A DNA stretch of 62,097 bases from an uncultured Eubacterium sp. GTDB taxonomy: Bacteria > Bacillota > Clostridia > Lachnospirales > Lachnospiraceae. The notes under the pieces were generated by a model, which did not search any database, was not told the origin of the DNA, and saw nothing but the letters and a program-made list of their open reading frames with translations. The stretch is taken from NCBI GenBank assembly GCA_945939115.1, contig CAMEVC010000014.1:1-62097 (forward strand), read 5' to 3'. Both the position numbers and the translations under genes were made by a program. Below are positions 4,899 to 62,097 of this stretch, piece after piece (position 1 is the first letter of the stretch; each line of letters starts with the position of its first letter).

Positions 4899-5610
4899 TA
4901 TTGAACAGTTTGTTGATTGGGTTGATAAATGTGATAATATAGTGTTTTTTGGCGGTGCAGGAGTATCAACAGAGAGTGGAATTCCTGATTTCAGAAGTCC
5001 TGATGGACTATATAACCAGAAATATAAGTATCCGCCAGAGACGATTATCAGTCATTCATTTTATTTGAGATATCCTGAAGAATTCTATAGATTTTATAAG
5101 GACAAAATGCTCTATCCAGATTCAGAGCCGGGGATAACACATTTGGCGCTTGCAAAACTTGAGCAGCAGGGAAAGCTTAAGGCGGTTGTCACACAGAACA
5201 TAGATGGACTTCATCAGAAAGCCGGAAATAAAAATGTGATTGAATTGCATGGCTCCGTACTTCGCAATTATTGTGAAAGATGTCACAGGTTTTACGGAAT
5301 GGAATCAATAATCAATTCTTGCGGTATTCCGACATGTGAATGTGGAGGTATAATTAAACCGGATGTGGTATTGTATGAAGAAGGTCTGGATGAGGATAAT
5401 ATAACAGCCGCAATAGAGTATATAAGAAATGCAGATATGCTTGTGGTTGGAGGAACATCTTTGGGAGTTTATCCGGCAGCAGGGCTTATAGATTATTACA
5501 GAGGCGATAAGCTTGTTTTAATTAATAAGTCACAAACACCATATGACGGAAAAGCAGATTTGCTTATAAATGCACCACTTGCTGATGTATTTGGGCGTTT
5601 CATTGAATGA
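4891..5610 (+). CDS. cobB: NAD-dependent protein deacylase (sirtuin, SIR2/CobB)
   Basis: 239 aa, normal length for a bacterial class III/U-type sirtuin. NAD-binding motifs are GGAGVSTESGIPDFRS near residue 20 and TQNIDGLH near 108. The catalytic His lies in ELHGS. A Zn module is suggested by CERC and CEC, with an additional Cys in NSCG. The C-terminal GGTSLGVYPAAGL and LINKSQTPYD complete the Rossmann domain. It removes acyl groups from protein lysines using NAD+. The start codon overlaps the end of the preceding gene, indicating translational coupling, although a functional tie to polysaccharide control is not evident. Confidence 0.93.
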   Translation: MNNIEQFVDWVDKCDNIVFFGGAGVSTESGIPDFRSPDGLYNQKYKYPPETIISHSFYLRYPEEFYRFYKDKMLYPDSEPGITHLALAKLEQQGKLKAVVTQNIDGLHQKAGNKNVIELHGSVLRNYCERCHRFYGMESIINSCGIPTCECGGIIKPDVVLYEEGLDEDNITAAIEYIRNADMLVVGGTSLGVYPAAGLIDYYRGDKLVLINKSQTPYDGKADLLINAPLADVFGRFIE

Positions 5611-5678
5611 TTTCAGTGTGTATTGGTGTTTTATAATCCGGGAAATACGGATTGAATATTAACATGGAGGTAATAATC

Positions 5679-5876
5679 ATGGAAGGAATTATTCCATATG
5701 AACCCGGGGATATTGTTGAGATGAAAAAGAAACATCCCTGTGGCAGCAATGAATGGGAAATTCTGAAGGCAGGTGCAGACATTAAGATGAAATGCTTAGG
5801 CTGTAGCCATGAGGTTATAATAAAAAGGTCTCTCGCACAAAAAAACACAAAAAATCTAAAAAAGGCTTGTAAATAA
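5679..5876 (+). CDS. DUF951 family protein
   Basis: 65 aa from ATG 5679, chosen because GGAGG (5666-5670) is 8 nt upstream; a TTG further upstream (5652) has no SD. The sequence has the DUF951 pattern: Y-x-PGDIVEMKKKHPCGSNEWE, then DIKMKCLGC with a further Cys, suggesting a small Zn-binding or OB-like fold. In Firmicutes this gene commonly sits next to rpsF-ssb-rpsR, as here. Function unknown. Confidence 0.85.
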   Translation: MEGIIPYEPGDIVEMKKKHPCGSNEWEILKAGADIKMKCLGCSHEVIIKRSLAQKNTKNLKKACK

Positions 5877-5883
5877 ATTCTTT

Positions 5884-5916
5884 ATATGATAAGATTTTGT
5901 CTTGTGATATATTTTT
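5884..5916 (+). terminator. Probable Rho-independent terminator
   Basis: Imperfect 11-bp stem ATATGATAAGA / TCTTGTGATAT (one mismatch, one G-U) with a TTTTG loop, followed by ATTTTT. It is placed between DUF951 and the rpsF operon. Confidence 0.5.
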
Positions 5917-5926
5917 AATCCTTGTT

Positions 5927-5961
5927 CCTTCATTTATATTTGTATATATAAGTAAAGAAGG
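5927..5961 (+). promoter_or_regulatory. Leader hairpin upstream of rpsF
   Basis: CCTTC (5927-5931) pairs with GAAGG (5957-5961), and inner AT-rich segments can pair further with bulges. Its position in the rpsF 5' leader suggests a ribosomal-protein autoregulatory structure. The CCG/ACCG signature of the known S6:S18 leader motif is not visible, so this is only a candidate. Confidence 0.3.
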
Positions 5962-5992
5962 GACCAAAAGACCAGAAGGAGGTGCGACGTAG

Positions 5993-6280
5993 ATGAATAA
6001 GTATGAATTAGCATTAGTTGTTAGCGCAAACGTCGAGGATGAAGTAAGAACAGCTACTATCGAGAAGGTTAATGAGTTAATCACTCGTTTCGGTGGTACA
6101 ATTACAGATCCAGGCACAAGCGAGAAGAAGAAGCTTGCATACGATATCCAGCATATGAGCGAAGGATTCTATAGTTTCATCAAGTTTGAAGCAGACGCAA
6201 CTGCTCCAGCAGAGATTGAAAGCAGAGTTCGTATCATGGATAATGTATTAAGATTCTTAATCGTTAAAGATGGAGAGTAA
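5993..6280 (+). CDS. rpsF: 30S ribosomal protein S6
   Basis: 95 aa, the usual size for bS6. It begins MNKYELALVVSANVEDE and contains KKLAYDIQHMSEGFYSFIKF, typical of the S6 ferredoxin-like fold, ending at VLRFLIVK. It binds S18 on the platform of the small subunit. First gene of the conserved rpsF-ssb-rpsR operon. SD GAAGGAGG precedes ATG 5993. Confidence 0.97.
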   Translation: MNKYELALVVSANVEDEVRTATIEKVNELITRFGGTITDPGTSEKKKLAYDIQHMSEGFYSFIKFEADATAPAEIESRVRIMDNVLRFLIVKDGE

Positions 6281-6349
6281 TTTACAAAATCCCAATTTGT
6301 AGATGAGACGTTTCACTTACAACTCTTTTTATAGAAGAGGAGATTAAGT

Positions 6350-6814
6350 ATGAACAAAGTAATTTTAATGGGAAGACTGACAAGAGAACCAGATGTAAGA
6401 TATTCACAGGGTGCTGACGGTTCCATGGCAGTAGCAAGATATACATTGGCTGTAGACAGAAGACGTGGAAGAAATAGTGATAATAATGAGCAGACAGCAG
6501 ATTTTATAAGCTGTGTTGCATTTGGCAGAAGTGGAGAATTTGCTGAGAAGTATCTTCATCAGGGAACCAAGATTGTTGTTACAGGAAGAATCCAGACAGG
6601 TAGCTATACTAATAAAGACGGTCAGAGAGTTTATACAACCGATGTAGTTGTCGAAGAACAGGAATTTGCAGAAAGCAAATCCGCAGCATCTAATGGAGGA
6701 GATTCTAATTATGCTGCTTATACACCATCAAGACCAGAGCCAAGTCAGGCTGCCGGTGACGGATTTATGGCTATTCCGGATGGGGTAGATGATGAGGGTT
6801 TGCCTTTCAACTAA
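6350..6814 (+). CDS. ssb: Single-stranded DNA-binding protein
   Basis: 154 aa. The N-terminal OB fold (about 1-105) starts MNKVILMGRLTREPDVRYSQ, with DFISCVAFGRSGEFAEKYL and the segment GRIQTGSYTNKDGQRVYTTD. A flexible Gly/Ser/Pro-rich linker leads to the acidic tip DDEGLPFN, the protein-docking tail of SSB. It coats ssDNA in replication and repair. Located between rpsF and rpsR as in most Firmicutes. Confidence 0.97.
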   Translation: MNKVILMGRLTREPDVRYSQGADGSMAVARYTLAVDRRRGRNSDNNEQTADFISCVAFGRSGEFAEKYLHQGTKIVVTGRIQTGSYTNKDGQRVYTTDVVVEEQEFAESKSAASNGGDSNYAAYTPSRPEPSQAAGDGFMAIPDGVDDEGLPFN

Positions 6815-6831
6815 GATAGGAGGTAAAAACC

Positions 6832-7095
6832 ATGCCAGATAAGAAGGCTGAGAGACCAGAGGGTCAGATGAGAAGAAGACCAATGCGCAGAAGAAAGAAA
6901 GTATGTGCATTTTGTGCAGATGCCAATAAGGTATTAGATTATAAGGATGTTGCTACACTTAAGCATTATGTTTCTGAGAGAGGAAAGATTCTTCCTAGAA
7001 GAATCACAGGAAACTGTGCAAAGCATCAGAGAGCGCTTACTGTAGCTGTTAAGAGAGCAAGACATGTAGCTCTTCTTCCATATTCAGTAGAGTAA
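6832..7095 (+). CDS. rpsR: 30S ribosomal protein S18
   Basis: 87 aa. A basic N-terminus is followed by [20 protein letters not shown], then [20 protein letters not shown] and the C-terminal [11 protein letters not shown], all hallmark bS18 segments. The Cys-rich (zinc-type) form is kept: CAFC plus GNC. It partners with S6 in the ribosome. SD GGAGG precedes the ATG, and a terminator follows the gene. Confidence 0.97.
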
Positions 7096-55682: not shown

Positions 55683-56372
55683 GTGACAAGATTTGCTATA
55701 TGTGATGACCAGGAAGAACATTGTGAAAGACTGGAATGTTATATAATAAGTGAATATGATAAATATATGGGTTCAACTGATAAGGCAGAGACTTATATAT
55801 ATAACTCAGGAGAAGAACTTTTTAATAGATATGCAGAAGATAAGATAGATATTTTTTTTATTGATATCGAATGTGGGAATATGAATGGGTTTGATATTGC
55901 CAGAAGGATTGTCAGCAAGAAAAAGAATGCTGGAATTGTGTATTATACGTCATATTCTGTATATGTTTTGGATGCATTTGTATGCAGACCGCTGGGATTT
56001 ATTAGGAAGGACTATATTGAGCAGGATGTTACAAGAGTAATGTATAATATCTGTGATTTTCTGCGGAATGAAAAAAGAGAGCTTGTTATAAAGAACGGCA
56101 AAGTTATAAGCCTGAACAATGTTTCTGTGGTAGAAGTATTTATGCATAATGTGGTGTTTCATGAAATTGGTTCTGACATAAAAATCAGAGCAACTTTATC
56201 TGAATACGAAGATAAACTGGAGCATTATGATTTTATCAGAATATCAAGAAGTGTAATGGTTAATCCTGACTATGTTGACAAAAGAGAAAAAGATTGTCTT
56301 ATTATGAAGGATGGAAATAGATACAATATAAGCAGAGACAGATTGCCTGAGGTAAGGAGAAGGTTTGTATGA
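55683..56372 (+). CDS. agrA: AgrA-like LytTR response regulator
   Basis: 229 aa, GTG start at 55683 with AGGAGA upstream. REC domain (1-120): acidic pair Asp8-Asp9, phosphoacceptor Asp61 in IFFIDIE, and a Lys in FIRKDY. LytTR DNA-binding domain (about 135-229): VEVFMHNVVFHEIG, FIRISRSVMVNPDYV and ISRDRLPEVRRRF. It would bind direct repeats such as those at 57683-57713. Four-base overlap with agrC, so co-translated. Belongs to peptide-quorum systems. Confidence 0.9.
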   Translation: MTRFAICDDQEEHCERLECYIISEYDKYMGSTDKAETYIYNSGEELFNRYAEDKIDIFFIDIECGNMNGFDIARRIVSKKKNAGIVYYTSYSVYVLDAFVCRPLGFIRKDYIEQDVTRVMYNICDFLRNEKRELVIKNGKVISLNNVSVVEVFMHNVVFHEIGSDIKIRATLSEYEDKLEHYDFIRISRSVMVNPDYVDKREKDCLIMKDGNRYNISRDRLPEVRRRFV

Positions 56373-57673
56373 CATACATGGTATTTGAAACACTAATAAA
56401 TTTATGTCAAAGCATAATAGTGACAGCGTTCCTAATTAAGTGCCTTCACAGCAAAAGGAAAGATAAAGAGCGGGTTAATTATATAATTGGAGTTCTGGGA
56501 ACCTTTATATATCTGGAAATTTCTAATTATGTTGTGTTTTTTGAAAGTGTGGGAATATATGCATATATGATATTCTCATTAATATTTAGTTTTGCGTTGT
56601 TGAGCGGAACGGCCATTGAAAAGATATTCTATAATATATTGATGTTATGTAGTCTTGTGGGGGCATCTTTATTAGGAGGCGGGATTGTGTCTTTATTTAC
56701 ACAACGAGATTATTTGGATGTTGTAGCCATTAATACATCAAGAAGGTATATTACTGTAATTCTGGTGCAGATAATATTAATACTTATATTCGGTGTAGTA
56801 ATAAAATTTAAGAATGTACAGAAAGATAATGATGGTAAATATATGATAGTTATGACTTTTATCCCTGCAGTGTCTGTTATTATATGTTGCCTCATAGTTT
56901 ACAGGGCGGATAAAAGCTATGAAATAAATGTGTTATATACATATATTGCTGTTATAGGAGTCATAATTGTTAATATTATAAGTCTTATTCTGCTTAAGAT
57001 GGAACAGAAGATATATGACCAGAAATTGAAGCAGCAGATTATGATAAGTGCATATCAGCAGAAAGAGAAGGATATAGAGACTATACTTGATATGCAGAAA
57101 CAGGGAAGTAAGCAGCGGCATGAGTTTAAGAATATAATCATACTTATGAAAGAGTTAATACATGATGGCAATTATGAATATGCAGAGCAAATATTAGACA
57201 GATATGTTTTAGAGCACAGTACTACATACAGCCCTGAAATAGTCAGCAATAATATTGTAATCAATTATCTTCTGAATCGTAAGCTTAACCAGTGTAAGGA
57301 TTGCGGTATAGACATGAGCTGTTATGTACTCGGTAATATTTCTGGAGTTGATGATATGGATATGTACATTCTTCTTGAGAATCTCTGTGATAATGCTATA
57401 GAAGCATCTGAAAAATGTGATAATCCTGTCATACAACTTCAGATATTACCAGAGGGAAAGAAGCTGTATATAGAAATCGGTAATTCAACAAAGGAAAATG
57501 TCTTAAAGAATAATCCGGATATGAATACAACGAAGGAAGATACTGGTTCACATGGATTCGGACTTATGAATGTGAGAGACATAATAGAGAAATATGAAGG
57601 CAAACTTAATTATGAACAGCAGGGAGATAATTATCTGTTGTGTAAAGCAGAGCTGAATACTATCTGTCAATAA
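56369..57673 (+). CDS. agrC: AgrC-like sensor histidine kinase (GHKL)
   Basis: 434 aa. Six or seven TM helices in residues 5-210 (sensor part), a coiled linker, the phosphoacceptor RHEFKN (His251), and the GHKL ATPase with N-box LLENLCDNAIEA and G-box GSHGFGLMNVRDII; the HPK10/AgrC class lacks a separate HAMP. It would sense the AgrD-derived cyclic peptide. Overlaps agrA by 4 bp. Confidence 0.9.
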   Translation: MTYMVFETLINLCQSIIVTAFLIKCLHSKRKDKERVNYIIGVLGTFIYLEISNYVVFFESVGIYAYMIFSLIFSFALLSGTAIEKIFYNILMLCSLVGASLLGGGIVSLFTQRDYLDVVAINTSRRYITVILVQIILILIFGVVIKFKNVQKDNDGKYMIVMTFIPAVSVIICCLIVYRADKSYEINVLYTYIAVIGVIIVNIISLILLKMEQKIYDQKLKQQIMISAYQQKEKDIETILDMQKQGSKQRHEFKNIIILMKELIHDGNYEYAEQILDRYVLEHSTTYSPEIVSNNIVINYLLNRKLNQCKDCGIDMSCYVLGNISGVDDMDMYILLENLCDNAIEASEKCDNPVIQLQILPEGKKLYIEIGNSTKENVLKNNPDMNTTKEDTGSHGFGLMNVRDIIEKYEGKLNYEQQGDNYLLCKAELNTICQ

Positions 57674-57682
57674 GAAAAAGTG

Positions 57683-57713
57683 CAATTCGTGCCGTTTTTC
57701 TACCATTCGTGCC
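57683..57713 (+). promoter_or_regulatory. Direct repeats, probable LytTR (AgrA) binding site
   Basis: CAATTCGTGCC (57683-57693) and CCATTCGTGCC (57703-57713) repeat with a 20-bp spacing, like the paired 9-bp sites bound by AgrA/LytTR regulators (10-bp half-turn phase). The second ends seven bp before the -35 position of the agrB promoter, the usual place for activation. Confidence 0.75.
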
Positions 57714-57719
57714 AAAGTG

Positions 57720-57748
57720 CTTTTTTAGTAATAAAAATCAGTTATAAT
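57720..57748 (+). promoter_or_regulatory. agrB-agrD promoter with weak -35
   Basis: -10 TATAAT (57743-57748); the -35 position (57720-57725) holds only CTTTTT, so an activator at the upstream direct repeats seems needed, as for the S. aureus agr P2/P3 promoters. Confidence 0.7.
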
Positions 57749-57773: not shown

Positions 57774-58022
57774 GTGTATATGATTCATTCGTTATCATCG
57801 AGGATAGCTGATTTTTTTGTTGTACGGAATGTGGCTAAAGAGGAAGAAAAAGAAGAATATGTTTATGGGATAGAACTTATTATATCCGGAATTATTAGTG
57901 TAGGCATAGTTGTTTTTATTGGTGCTGTTACAGGAAGCATTTTGTATGCGCTGTTATATAACATTATGATGGTAGTAATAAGAATGTATACAGGAGGATA
58001 CCATGCAGAAGAAGATACTTAA
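57774..58022 (+). pseudogene. agrB: Truncated AgrB-like peptide protease/exporter
   Basis: 82 aa from ATG 57780 or GTG 57774. The N-terminal half of AgrB (usual length about 190-210 aa): two TM segments (about 33-50, 52-72) and the catalytic-His motif IRMYTGGYHA near the end. The catalytic Cys, normally seven residues after the His, and the last four TM are absent; the frame ends EEDT-stop immediately. The agrD start ATG lies inside the CAT-GCA of this motif. Enzymatically inactive by itself. Deletion between GGAGGATA-like sites near mid-agrB and near agrD is a likely cause. Confidence 0.75.
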
Positions 58023-58134
58023 GGGACTGGCTGACGCAGCAAAAAAGACAGCCAGAGCATCTGTTAATTCAGCATCTTTCTTTGCAGCTTATCAGCCTAA
58101 AGAGCCTGATAGCCTGAAGAAGAAAGATAAGTAA
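58003..58134 (+). CDS. agrD: AgrD-like autoinducer peptide precursor (Ser-lactone type)
   Basis: 43 aa, missed by ordinary gene length cut-offs. N-terminal amphipathic basic helix (MQKKILKGLADAAKKTARAS), then a putative AIP core S25-F26-F27-A28-A29, then the AgrD recognition tail Y30-Q-P-K-E-P-D-S-L-K. The arrangement aligns with the clostridial AgrD pattern [S/C]-A-[C/S]-x4-[H/Y]-Q-P-x-E-P-x-S-L. Ser25 stands where Cys usually forms the thiolactone, so a lactone ring is predicted. SD AGGAGG (57992-57997) lies within agrB. Its only nearby processing enzyme is truncated. Confidence 0.85.
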   Translation: MQKKILKGLADAAKKTARASVNSASFFAAYQPKEPDSLKKKDK

Positions 58135-58207: not shown

Positions 58208-58639
58208 ATGACTGATTTAAAAGGTTTTATTACAAAGGGGATATTAACCGCAATGGCGCTAGTTAGTATTGGATCTGCTTCACTTGGGATAGTTAAGGCT
58301 AATAATTGGGAAGATACAGCCTATGAATTTAGCTTTGACTATAACGATGATTGGACAGATGTTAGGCAAAAAGAAGATGATAGTGCATCATATATGAAGT
58401 GCATAGAAGCATACGATGAAGATTGCGGTTATTATGCATGTGTATTTGGATGTGATGATTATGGTAGAAGTGGAGCAGAAAGGTGTAGCCATGAGTATGG
58501 ATATAGCGAGGGTGTAACACGTTTTCATTCCAACTGGGTTAAAACAAGCCATAATTATGCATATTTTTATGCATATTCAGATAATGTTGCAGCATATGGT
58601 GGCGTATGGAGTCCGGATAATTATAATGGTTATAAATAA
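58208..58639 (+). CDS. Secreted DUF2712-like protein
   Basis: 143 aa from ATG 58208 (AAGGAG upstream). A Sec signal peptide (about 1-31, cut after VKA) is followed by a mature acidic, Tyr/Trp/Asp-rich domain of about 112 aa with Cys at 67, 75, 81, 85 and 96, ending with the VWSPDNYNG motif. The N-x-x-D-x-x-F-x-F-x-[YF] start, Y-x-K at about 63-66 and G-x-WSPD-[NS] end are shared with DUF2712 proteins, small secreted peptides encoded beside ABC transporters in Firmicutes. Possible bacteriocin-like or signalling protein; unproven. Confidence 0.65.
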   Translation: MTDLKGFITKGILTAMALVSIGSASLGIVKANNWEDTAYEFSFDYNDDWTDVRQKEDDSASYMKCIEAYDEDCGYYACVFGCDDYGRSGAERCSHEYGYSEGVTRFHSNWVKTSHNYAYFYAYSDNVAAYGGVWSPDNYNGYK

Positions 58640-58708: not shown

Positions 58709-58758
58709 ATAATACATATGAATATAACATTTATGTAATAAATAATGTAGAGGTGGTT

Positions 58759-59583
58759 ATGATAAGAAAAACTTTTTTTTTGATGTGCATATTATCAGTA
58801 TGCTTTATTGGATTAACAGGTTGTACAGAACAGAAAGTTTCAGATATATATGAGACAAACATTTCACAGAATAAAGTTTCTAATATAGAATCAAGTTCTC
58901 AAAATAATATTGAAAAAAAAATAACGCTTTCATATCAATCCATTAGTAACGAAGTGTTTTATGTAAATGAAGGTGAATCTGCAGAAATAAAAAACAGGAA
59001 GGATGATTATTTAGTGATAGTCGAGGAGGTAAGAGCTGTTGATAATATTTCTGAATTTTCAGAGATAATGGATCAGACTTATGAAGATAATATTAAATAT
59101 TGGTATGAAAATATAGATAACAATGCAAAGCTTAATAATAATGGTACTTTAAAACCTGATGTAACAGGAGTAGACAGGATATTTTTATTGGTAAAGTTAT
59201 CTATAACAAATAACTCTGATAAGAAAAGTGTGTTTAATTCTTCTGGTTTTAAAACTTTTAATATAGATAGAGAACAAAACAAATATAAAGTATTAAGTGA
59301 AGGATTTGAATTCATAGATAAGGCTGATGAAGAACCTGTAGCGAAAAATCATTTGACACTTCAAGCAGGAGAAACAAAGGAAATAGTTATAGGCTCGGCT
59401 GTACCTAAAGAAATTATTACAGGGTATACAATGGTAAGGAAAGAAGGAGAGTCCGGATATAAAGATGTAGTTGCAGAAGGTTCCTCACTTGAATCATTGT
59501 ATATGTATTACAGTGTCACAGGGGATATGTTTCCTAAGGGAACCAATGTGTTTAAGCTTGATGTGGAATATGCAGGAAAGTAG
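58759..59583 (+). CDS. Lipoprotein with DUF4352/DUF5105-like beta-sandwich
   Basis: 274 aa from ATG 58759 (GAGGTGG upstream); the open frame from TTG 58681 runs through the terminator and is not used. Lipobox GLTGC (Cys about residue 22). A Ser/Asn-rich linker precedes a domain with FLLVKLSITNNSDKKSVFNS and LQAGETKEIVIG, the pattern of immunoprotective-extracellular/telokin-like (DUF4352-type) sandwiches. Such lipoproteins often act as bacteriocin-immunity or ABC-associated substrate-binding factors. First gene of the ABC-related set. Confidence 0.6.
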   Translation: MIRKTFFLMCILSVCFIGLTGCTEQKVSDIYETNISQNKVSNIESSSQNNIEKKITLSYQSISNEVFYVNEGESAEIKNRKDDYLVIVEEVRAVDNISEFSEIMDQTYEDNIKYWYENIDNNAKLNNNGTLKPDVTGVDRIFLLVKLSITNNSDKKSVFNSSGFKTFNIDREQNKYKVLSEGFEFIDKADEEPVAKNHLTLQAGETKEIVIGSAVPKEIITGYTMVRKEGESGYKDVVAEGSSLESLYMYYSVTGDMFPKGTNVFKLDVEYAGK

Positions 59584-59591
59584 GTCATATT

Positions 59592-60422
59592 ATGGGGCAA
59601 ATAATAAAAATAGAAATAGAAAGAGCATTTAAAAGTAAGGGATTATGGCTTTCAGTATTTATAGGAATGGTTATTTGTATAGAGCATATTTTTAGAGTGG
59701 TATCGCCGGTAGCGGAAAGACCGTTAGATTTTTATATATATGATAGTGCAGTAAGTATGCCGGCTAGTGCATTTCAGTTTTGGGTTGAGGCGGGAAGTTC
59801 AAATTTTGAGGGTGCATTGATGGTAAGATTATTTCCAATACTTGCTGTGATGCCATATGCTGTATCTTATCTTACAGATATAAAGAGCGGAATAATAAAG
59901 AACTATTACATAAGAACATCTAAGATTAATTATCTGACAGCAAAGTATGTGTCAGTATTTGTGACCGGAGGATTCGCAGTTACATTTCCGTTATTGGTGA
60001 ATTTTCTTATAACAACAGCTTGTCTTCCATCGATTGTATGGCCAATTGGTGTTTTTACAGTAAATGCTAATGGGATGTGGTCTGATATTTTCTATTCACA
60101 TCCATACATATATATTTTTATGATGCTGGCCCTTATGTATATATGTGGAGGATTATTATCAACATTGGCACTGGTCTTTTCTAATCTGGTTGATAATAGA
60201 TTTGTCGTAATTCTTGCACCATTTATTATATGTGAGTTTACTAATGCAATGATAAGGATTTCGCATATAAAATGGGTAAAAAAAATGGCACCAACTTATC
60301 TTTTTAATATAGCGCAAACATCACCAAAATGTGCACAGTCATACATTGTATATATTAGTATAATGATTATGTTAGGAATATTTGTTTATTTCATAGGGGG
60401 AGTGAAGCGTGAAACATATTGA
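59592..60422 (+). CDS. ABC-2 type membrane permease
   Basis: 276 aa with six TM segments (about 17-35, 75-95, 115-140, 170-195, 200-225, 250-270), the plan of ABC-2 permeases of the bacteriocin-immunity or export type. IIKNYYIRTSKINYLTAKYV is a typical cytosolic coupling segment. No ATPase is in the window. SD GTCATATT is weak. Overlaps the next gene by 14 bp. Confidence 0.75.
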   Translation: MGQIIKIEIERAFKSKGLWLSVFIGMVICIEHIFRVVSPVAERPLDFYIYDSAVSMPASAFQFWVEAGSSNFEGALMVRLFPILAVMPYAVSYLTDIKSGIIKNYYIRTSKINYLTAKYVSVFVTGGFAVTFPLLVNFLITTACLPSIVWPIGVFTVNANGMWSDIFYSHPYIYIFMMLALMYICGGLLSTLALVFSNLVDNRFVVILAPFIICEFTNAMIRISHIKWVKKMAPTYLFNIAQTSPKCAQSYIVYISIMIMLGIFVYFIGGVKRETY

Positions 60423-60990
60423 TATAAAAAAATTTGCCGAAAAAAAAACATGTATTGTTTTAACTATAATACTGTTTATAATACTGTCCATATTGTATAT
60501 AGCGGGATATATTGATATAAATAAACGATTTCCAAAACCTAAAGAGGAATTATATGAGACTGGGCAGTATATTGAATACAAAGACGGAATTAAAATAAAG
60601 GGGTTAGGGGTAGAATATTGTTCTTCAGAGCAGTTTAAGGAAAAATACCTCCCTGATGATAATAGCAAATTTGATCACATAGTTGTTAAGATAATGGTAT
60701 TTAACGAGACTGATACAGTAATAGATATGGCATATCTTAATCAATATTTTAATTTGGTTATATATCCTGCCGGATACGAAAATCAAGGGGAGTGCATATT
60801 AGATAATAATTATATTAAACCGAAAGAAGAACGTGAAATATATATTGGATATAATGTGTCTGAGGCAATATTAGCAAGTGAAAAAAGAGAAAAGGTATTA
60901 AAGCATGATATTATGTTTTGCCTTAAGGCATATCCAGTAAGACAGGCAATAGTTTTTAAGGGGATTGAGGGATATGAAGAAGATAAATAA
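60409..60990 (+). CDS. Membrane-anchored DUF4352-like protein
   Basis: 193 aa, GTG start at 60409 inside the preceding gene (SD GGGGGAG). One TM (about 15-34) and an outside domain with IVVKIMVFNETDTVIDM and NYIKPKEEREIYIGYN, the same strand pattern as the lipoprotein at 58759. Possibly a DUF5028-type accessory protein. Overlap implies translational coupling. Confidence 0.6.
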   Translation: MKHIDIKKFAEKKTCIVLTIILFIILSILYIAGYIDINKRFPKPKEELYETGQYIEYKDGIKIKGLGVEYCSSEQFKEKYLPDDNSKFDHIVVKIMVFNETDTVIDMAYLNQYFNLVIYPAGYENQGECILDNNYIKPKEEREIYIGYNVSEAILASEKREKVLKHDIMFCLKAYPVRQAIVFKGIEGYEEDK

Positions 60991-61732
60991 GTTATTGGGT
61001 TCGGTAGAGATTACCCTGACATTATCCGTTATTCTGTATATAGCATGTCTTATACCTGTACATACTGTAAAAAGACTTACAGATTCTGAATTAATGTTAA
61101 GATATGGGACACCATGCTTGTATGATGTTATTATGGAAATATCAGTATTTGCATTGTGGAAATACATATTGCCAATAGTACTGTTTTATATTTTGTATCT
61201 TCTAAAGTATGAACTTAATAGTGCAGTAGTAATAAGGATGAAGAGTGTAAGAACAATATGGATTAGTCTACAGAAAAACATAGTATGTAGTTCATTTTTT
61301 TTCTCACTTTATATTACTATTATAACATTTATTGAAGGTTATTTCATGACAGGGGAAATATGTAATTGGAACGATACTAATAGTAAAGCATATGAAATAG
61401 TTATGAGACCGTTATCAAATATTCCGGAATTGTGGGAAATAACCATTGCTTATGCTGTTGGAATATACACAGCATTATATGTATCTTCTACCATTCTTAT
61501 GTATATATGGTGGCTCACAGATAAATCGTGGCTGGGATACATGGCAGCAATCTGTATATTGACTATAGAGAATCTGTGTAAAAAGGGTTATCTGTATCGA
61601 TATTATACTTTTTCAATGGCATATTATGAGGGGATAAATGTATATACAAATATTCTTTATCCATTGGCTTTGTCTATTGTTTTGATGCTTATTACCCCCT
61701 TTATCATAAGGAGAAAGGATTTCTTGAAGTAA
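60974..61732 (+). CDS. Polytopic membrane protein, probable ABC-2-like subunit
   Basis: 252 aa from ATG 60974 (GAGG upstream; overlaps the previous gene by 17 bp). Six TM segments (about 12-30, 50-72, 97-120, 155-180, 185-205, 225-245). No characterised motif. Operon position argues for the second permease or an accessory membrane protein of the ABC system. Confidence 0.6.
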   Translation: MKKINKLLGSVEITLTLSVILYIACLIPVHTVKRLTDSELMLRYGTPCLYDVIMEISVFALWKYILPIVLFYILYLLKYELNSAVVIRMKSVRTIWISLQKNIVCSSFFFSLYITIITFIEGYFMTGEICNWNDTNSKAYEIVMRPLSNIPELWEITIAYAVGIYTALYVSSTILMYIWWLTDKSWLGYMAAICILTIENLCKKGYLYRYYTFSMAYYEGINVYTNILYPLALSIVLMLITPFIIRRKDFLK

Positions 61733-61733
61733 T

Positions 61734-62097
61734 ATGAAAAATGTTATATTTCAGATACGATATGATATTATTAATGGAATAGTGCATCAGTGGAAGAAGT
61801 TTATGCTGCTTGCAGTTGTATATGCAGTAATTATTGCGGAATTTCTTGTGCGGTGTAAGTTAAAGCATTTGTCAGGGACATTCACATCATCAGATGTTGT
61901 CTTATGGCTATTCAAGGGGATGGACTGGATAAGGGATACACAGCGCAATATAGAGATACCAACAGCATACATACTGCCTAATATATTGATAGCATTTATT
62001 ATAGGTAACTATCCTTTTAAGGATATTAACGGATATGGTGGAATGGTGCTTATGAGGGCAAGAAAGAAATCAGTCTGGTGGATTTCAAAGTGTGTCT
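61734..62097 (+). CDS. Partial membrane protein, probable ABC-2 permease
   Basis: Starts ATG 61734 and runs off the window edge after about 121 codons. A TM at about 19-40 and a second at about 83-100, with NYPFKDINGYGGMVLMRARK between, a coupling-loop-like segment similar in placement to that of the 59592 gene. The ABC ATPase gene may follow outside the window. Confidence 0.7.
   Translation, partial: MKNVIFQIRYDIINGIVHQWKKFMLLAVVYAVIIAEFLVRCKLKHLSGTFTSSDVVLWLFKGMDWIRDTQRNIEIPTAYILPNILIAFIIGNYPFKDINGYGGMVLMRARKKSVWWISKCV

Follow-up and report, generated by a model that had tools for sequence, protein, structure and literature searches.

The agr gene set of Staphylococcus pseudintermedius and S. 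intermedius consists of B, D, C and A, and the AgrD peptides of Clostridium perfringens and of the C. difficile agr1 system carry a cysteine at the ring position. In the staphylococcal systems a serine replaces the cysteine, and the autoinducing peptide (AIP) is a lactone (as described in parts of PMC12312760 and PMC3673130). The Fsr system of Enterococcus faecalis also uses a serine lactone pheromone, GBAP, which has a nine-residue ring (part of PMC12312760), and its fsrD lies within the fsrB sequence (part of PMC3673130). The agr locus described here was found in the window, that is, the whole 62,097-nt stretch of DNA that was analysed. It resembles both the staphylococcal system and Fsr in having a Ser-type signal, with a lactone product predicted, and it resembles the agr loci of C. 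perfringens and C. difficile agr1 in its AgrB/AgrD type of signalling. Unlike the staphylococcal systems, it has the order A-C-B'-D, a truncated AgrB and an AgrD tail that starts with YQPKEP; unlike GBAP, its predicted ring has five residues and its agrD comes after a cut agrB; and unlike the clostridial systems, its AgrD has a serine and its agrB truncation is natural, the laboratory parallel to this loss being an agrB1 deletion in C. difficile (part of PMC8534292). We consider it probable, at roughly 60%, that the locus is of a Ser type with a predicted lactone signal, has lost most of agrB to a deletion of about 380 bp and acts as a receiver of the signal, ahead of a cluster encoding a secreted protein and ABC components. 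The odds for this reading and for its rivals overlap, and the readings are not mutually exclusive.

A Ser-type AgrD precursor behind a truncated agrB

The genes run along the forward strand in the order agrA, agrC, agrB', agrD, secreted protein and lipoprotein-like gene, and genes for membrane proteins fill the rest of the contig. The agrA gene (55683..56372) encodes a LytTR response regulator of 229 aa, with Pfam matches to LytTR (1.1e-13) and Response_reg (8.7e-8) and with the acidic pair, IDIE and IRKD present. It is followed by agrC (56369..57673), encoding a membrane histidine kinase of 434 aa with a HATPase_c_5 (GHKL) match (1.5e-19), seven hydrophobic segments, and the motifs RHE at 250, NLCDNA at 338 and GFGL at 396. 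Both frames are intact, giving a full pair of LytTR regulator and GHKL sensor kinase; the set of A, B, C and D is incomplete through the truncation of agrB. Behind agrC, the direct repeat ATTCGTGCC-N11-ATTCGTGCC (57685..57713) is a candidate AgrA operator, and TATAAT (57743..57748) is likely the -10 element of an agrB'D promoter. A perfect direct repeat is also present behind agrC in the related genome G005, and imperfect repeats were seen by eye upstream of agrB in G008 and upstream of agrD in G014. The operator candidate is based on this position and recurrence; rarity was rejected as an argument, perfect 9-mer repeats at N11 spacing occurring four times in the window and zero to three times in each of 10 shuffles.

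The agrB remnant (agrB', 57780..58022) comprises the first 80 codons and stops just past GGYHA, with about 60% of the protein gone. It matches Pfam AgrB (PF04647) at 4e-18, covering just positions 1-72 of the 185 of the profile, and has one hydrophobic segment, compared with five in the AgrB of G014. Of the conserved His and Cys of the PF04647 active site, GGYHA is kept and the Cys region is deleted. The AgrB of S. aureus has its active-site cysteine at C84 and also requires R70, G75 and H77 (part of PMC10196373); a fragment ending at GGYHA cannot hold the catalytic cysteine. The locus has lost the C-terminal part of agrB, including the catalytic Cys region, a truncation that an earlier note on this DNA had overlooked. 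The proposal in that note of a mature lactone product is not supported for this locus, with its cognate AgrB reduced to 80 codons. Comparison with G008 revealed the deletion junction (58002..58013): the DNA match ends at 58009 and resumes at 58013, G008 has CATG at both edges, and the 384 bp between its two CATG copies are absent from the window. The CATG microhomology may have caused the deletion.

Immediately at the junction, agrD (58003..58134, stop included) encodes a 43-aa precursor, MQKKILKGLADAAKKTARASVNSASFFAAYQPKEPDSLKKKDK, in which the core Ser25-Phe-Phe-Ala-Ala29 is followed by the tail YQPKEPDSL. It matches the NCBIfam model TIGR04223 (AgrD family cyclic lactone autoinducer peptide) with 54 bits against a cut-off of 19 (E 1.2e-14), and Ser25 stands five residues ahead of the conserved YQP tail, at the position where this family has its ring Cys or Ser. 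A profile built from relatives with the window left out gave the frame 64.7 bits, the runner-up among the window's 1,219 frames reaching 8.3; the maximum in five base-shuffled windows was 8.4 bits. A Pfam search returned no match for the frame. On the TIGR04223 score, the leave-out profile and the shuffled windows, a chance frame was rejected: the gene is a genuine AgrD precursor, and both the small 43-aa frame and the serine at its ring position were correctly recognized in the earlier note. Its assignment of a Shine-Dalgarno (SD) sequence and start was right as to the letters, AGGAGG lying 5 nt before the ATG, but missed their origin. The start codon is formed by CAT-GCA of agrB, and the SD by the GGA-GGA codons of agrB, both within GGYHA; since they now adjoin agrD, the SD derives from the agrB deletion. 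The ring size of the window AgrD and its lactone product are predictions, the latter made by analogy with S. pseudintermedius and E. faecalis.

Serine at the ring position and the state of agr loci in relatives

AgrB relatives of the window type were present in 5 of the 22 genomes of the genus, and AgrD matches at E values up to 0.01 also in 5 of 22. An agrD accompanies four of the five window-type AgrB loci, and all four have serine at the ring position: the cores are NSASFFAA (window), NSASFFGL (G008), NSASFFTM (G014) and NSASIWSC (G005), with YQPKEP next in each. Two AgrD matches in G012 belong to other types, one with Ser-Cys and one with Cys. AgrD matches turned up in 72 of 298 sampled genomes of the family. 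The loci of all 138 matches were fetched, yielding 139 AgrD frames; after removal of one spurious frame (L148) and three duplicate peptides, 135 distinct AgrDs remained, the window's own included. The ring position, set by hand for 14 of the 135, is occupied by Cys in 107, Ser in 26 and Ala in 2, a count from a TIGR04223 search that may miss odd AgrDs. A full-length AgrB (one whose profile match begins no later than position 20 and reaches at least position 160) lies beside 20 of the 26 Ser AgrDs within the fetched flanks, which span about 1.2-1.5 kb and are shorter at contig ends. In 9 of the 26 the residue after the serine is Cys, and 13 have no Cys within the five residues. Ring closure in the nine Ser-Cys peptides may be through the Cys, so that lactone-only candidates are more safely put at 13 to 17. 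The earlier note describes lactone AIPs as rare, with the S. intermedius group as the best-known case, an incomplete picture in view of GBAP and of these 26 Ser precursors. Among the papers listed by full-text literature searches, none on Ser AgrDs in this family was noticed.

Serine at the ring position is an inherited, old trait. Decay from Cys to Ser was rejected as an explanation of the serine itself, on its presence in all four same-type loci with agrD and in 26 of 135 AgrDs of the family.

The Ser-Cys subclass is made up of L002 (contig C20 of the window's genome, G000), L027, L062, L079, L081, L087, L089, L106 and L119. G000 also encodes a second Ser-type AgrD (C28:15856-15969; L003/L007), SSANSSSSFYLNQPEEP, with a full AgrB adjoining. 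In another genome of the family (G063), 13 AgrD matches (L033, L055, L060, L065, L076, L078, L082, L094, L101, L105, L111, L127 and L152) have no AgrB in the fetched flanks, and at least two AgrB matches occur in the genome, genome-wide AgrB counts being lower bounds. Perhaps a few peptidases serve many signals there.

Among the rivals, the one that survives best is plain decay, in which the whole agr locus is being lost and agrD is merely still undamaged; we regard it as unlikely, though a serious contender. Decay does occur in relatives. G008 has kept agrD, with agrA spread across three frames, a frame-breaking duplication in agrC, and eight Ts in place of the window's seven near the start of agrB, which shifts the first codons out of frame; part of this damage might be assembly error. 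In G018 (L012 1492-1731), agrB is cut just past GYHA, at nearly the same place as in the window; no agrD was found near it, the tail of another frame coming next, and this cut is independent of the window's. Split agrB frames are also present at three loci of the family sample (L052, L104 and L156). Against decay, agrA, agrC, the agrB fragment and agrD of the window contain no further stop or frameshift, and in the comparison with G008 the conservation of AgrD (71%) is no lower than that of the AgrB part (66%) and of AgrA and AgrC (49-65% over the main stretches). Moreover, two of the five window-type agr loci, those of G014 and G005, are complete. The G014 locus shares with the window the order AgrA-C-B-D, an AgrC of 43% identity and an AgrD with the core NSASFFTMYQPKEPD, and differs in its full-length AgrB and in another secreted gene downstream.

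The downstream cluster and a second AgrB

Behind agrD lies a gene for a secreted protein (58208..58639; 143 aa, C-terminal end ...GGVWSPDNYNGYK), which has matches in 7 of the 22 genus genomes and 8 of the 298 family genomes, the window's own counted in both. It has no match to Pfam DUF2712, and two of six related secreted proteins gave sub-threshold DUF2712 scores (18.3 and 12.7 bits; cut-off 22); perhaps it is distantly DUF2712-like. Next come a lipoprotein-like gene (58741..59583), with a comparable gene, by eye, beside the secreted gene in G019, G007, G018 and G011, a membrane protein (59592..60422), with DNA matches in the clusters of G019 and G007, and two genes with comparable counterparts in G019 and G007, namely a small membrane-anchored protein (60409..60990) and a permease-like membrane protein (60974..61732; an inner ATG was chosen as start). 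The last gene, cut by the contig end, encodes a DUF2705 permease (61734..62097; Pfam 4e-5, 23.4 bits against a cut-off of 22.4) that is 64% identical to a G019 permease. The papers listed by a literature search on DUF2712, DUF2705 and AgrB name neither of the two DUFs.

The cluster recurs in other genomes of the genus. A regulator-kinase pair precedes it in G007 and in the G018 copy near 149 kb of contig 1, and in G019 no such pair is located beside it on the same strand; the cluster stretches of these three contain no AgrB, nor any AgrD match with an E value under 0.01. The G011 cluster begins with agrB, regulator, kinase and agrD, and the secreted gene, lipoprotein-like gene and membrane protein come after them. 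In G001 an AgrD heads the cluster, and ATPase, agrB, regulator and kinase form its tail; the AgrD frame continues into the secreted gene without a stop (L216 11921-12166), and the cluster head is apparently damaged by deletion. Further related ABC/permease clusters exist in the window's genome on contigs C8, C9, C15 and C23 (L224-L227). By eye, three of them have a regulator-kinase pair close by, and none has an AgrD match at E 0.01; L225 includes tandem lipoprotein-like genes (5371-6144 and 6230-7003) that are equally long and agree exactly at the starts and ends that were displayed.

Outside the window, three full-length AgrBs are encoded in G000. Their identity to the AgrBs of G008 and G014 is only 20-26%, because of which processing of the window AgrD in trans would not be expected of them, and we judge maturation by one of the three to be doubtful, the foremost candidate being that at the start of contig C28. 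The C28 protein enters a more specific proposal, in which full-length AgrB2 (C28:136-702), encoded downstream of the same cargo cluster, matures the orphan AgrD in a hybrid circuit and the loss of the window's own agrB is tolerated. At its start C28 encodes the final 36 residues of an ABC ATPase, followed by agrB2, a regulator, a kinase and three further genes, which we take to be sugar-kinase-, YkgJ- and Lgt-like; the same order, including these three genes, stands behind the ATPase of the related G001 cluster. When G000 was searched using a single ATPase query and a single permease query, the window cluster was the only one found without its ATPase, and the C28 ATPase end the only fragment of its type without a cluster. 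These observations make it rather probable that the window contig (C14) and C28 adjoin. In addition, no agrD was found within C28:1-6000.

The join is nevertheless unproven, with no exact overlap of 15-150 nt between the two contigs, and the left flanks disagree. At the C28-type site, a gene that is presumably methionine-synthase-like lies on the left side in G001 and G008, and nearby in G014, whereas the window agr locus is flanked by an acyl-CoA-ligase-like gene, the same as at the agr site of G008. Neither that presumed methionine-synthase-like gene nor the genes we assume to be iorA and queT were found in the window or the examined G000 stretches. AgrB2 itself shares only 20-22% identity with its counterparts in G008 and G014, and its relatives in G001 and G011 pair with Cys AgrDs. 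Taken with the evidence on both sides, the hybrid arrangement seems a little less credible than decay. Less probable again is the fuller version, a rewired circuit in which the deletion cost the Ser AgrD its own AgrB, made agrB active-site codons into the ribosome site and start codon of agrD, and left maturation to the divergent AgrB encoded beyond the other end of the cluster; if true, one cargo would have one or two AgrC receptors beside it that sense a lactone signal.

Remaining alternatives and the predicted role of the locus

An AgrD that works inside the cell, unprocessed and without AgrB, has a precedent: upon deletion of agrB1 in C. difficile 630, AgrD1 builds up in the cytoplasm, and a change in gene expression correlates with this (part of PMC8534292). 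In the window genome nothing points to an intracellular role of AgrD, for which no target is known, and we consider this very improbable. Weakest of all is the idea that the agrB deletion is an assembly artefact absent from the organism: although the assembly is a draft of 48 contigs, the 62-kb contig continues for another 4 kb past the junction, the cut falls on matching CATG copies, as expected of a biological deletion, and G018 has a similar agrB cut. The deletion, seen in one genome, could be private to the strain, an assembly error being less likely. An origin of the agr locus from phage or plasmid has no support. A scan with AgrC confirmed no relative in the viral contigs collection, and the plasmid collection gave no AgrD match; the PHROGs families matched were phrog_10353 for the AgrB fragment (1.2e-7) and phrog_17065 for AgrD (0.0021), both of unknown function.

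The favoured reading is a Ser-type locus that would still receive a signal after losing most of agrB. AgrA, AgrC, the likely AgrA operator and the AgrD precursor remain after the deletion, with AgrD translation now presumably beginning at the SD and ATG inside the agrB GGYHA codons. The strain would be unable to mature and export this signal with its cognate AgrB. AgrC and AgrA would receive a matching signal from other cells, acting through the promoter at about 57685-57748, and the received signal would turn on agrB'D and probably also the downstream secreted-protein/ABC cluster. The strain may thus listen without speaking, unless another enzyme matures its AgrD.

Presence of serine in 26 of 135 AgrDs indicates that Ser-ring peptides, predicted lactones, are frequent in a large bacterial family and are not a staphylococcal or enterococcal oddity, and this AgrD class offers cyclic lactone predictions that can be tested. 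With receptor and regulator intact, the window locus represents a natural signal-maturation mutant, on which eavesdropping and cross-processing between AgrB and AgrD can be tested directly.
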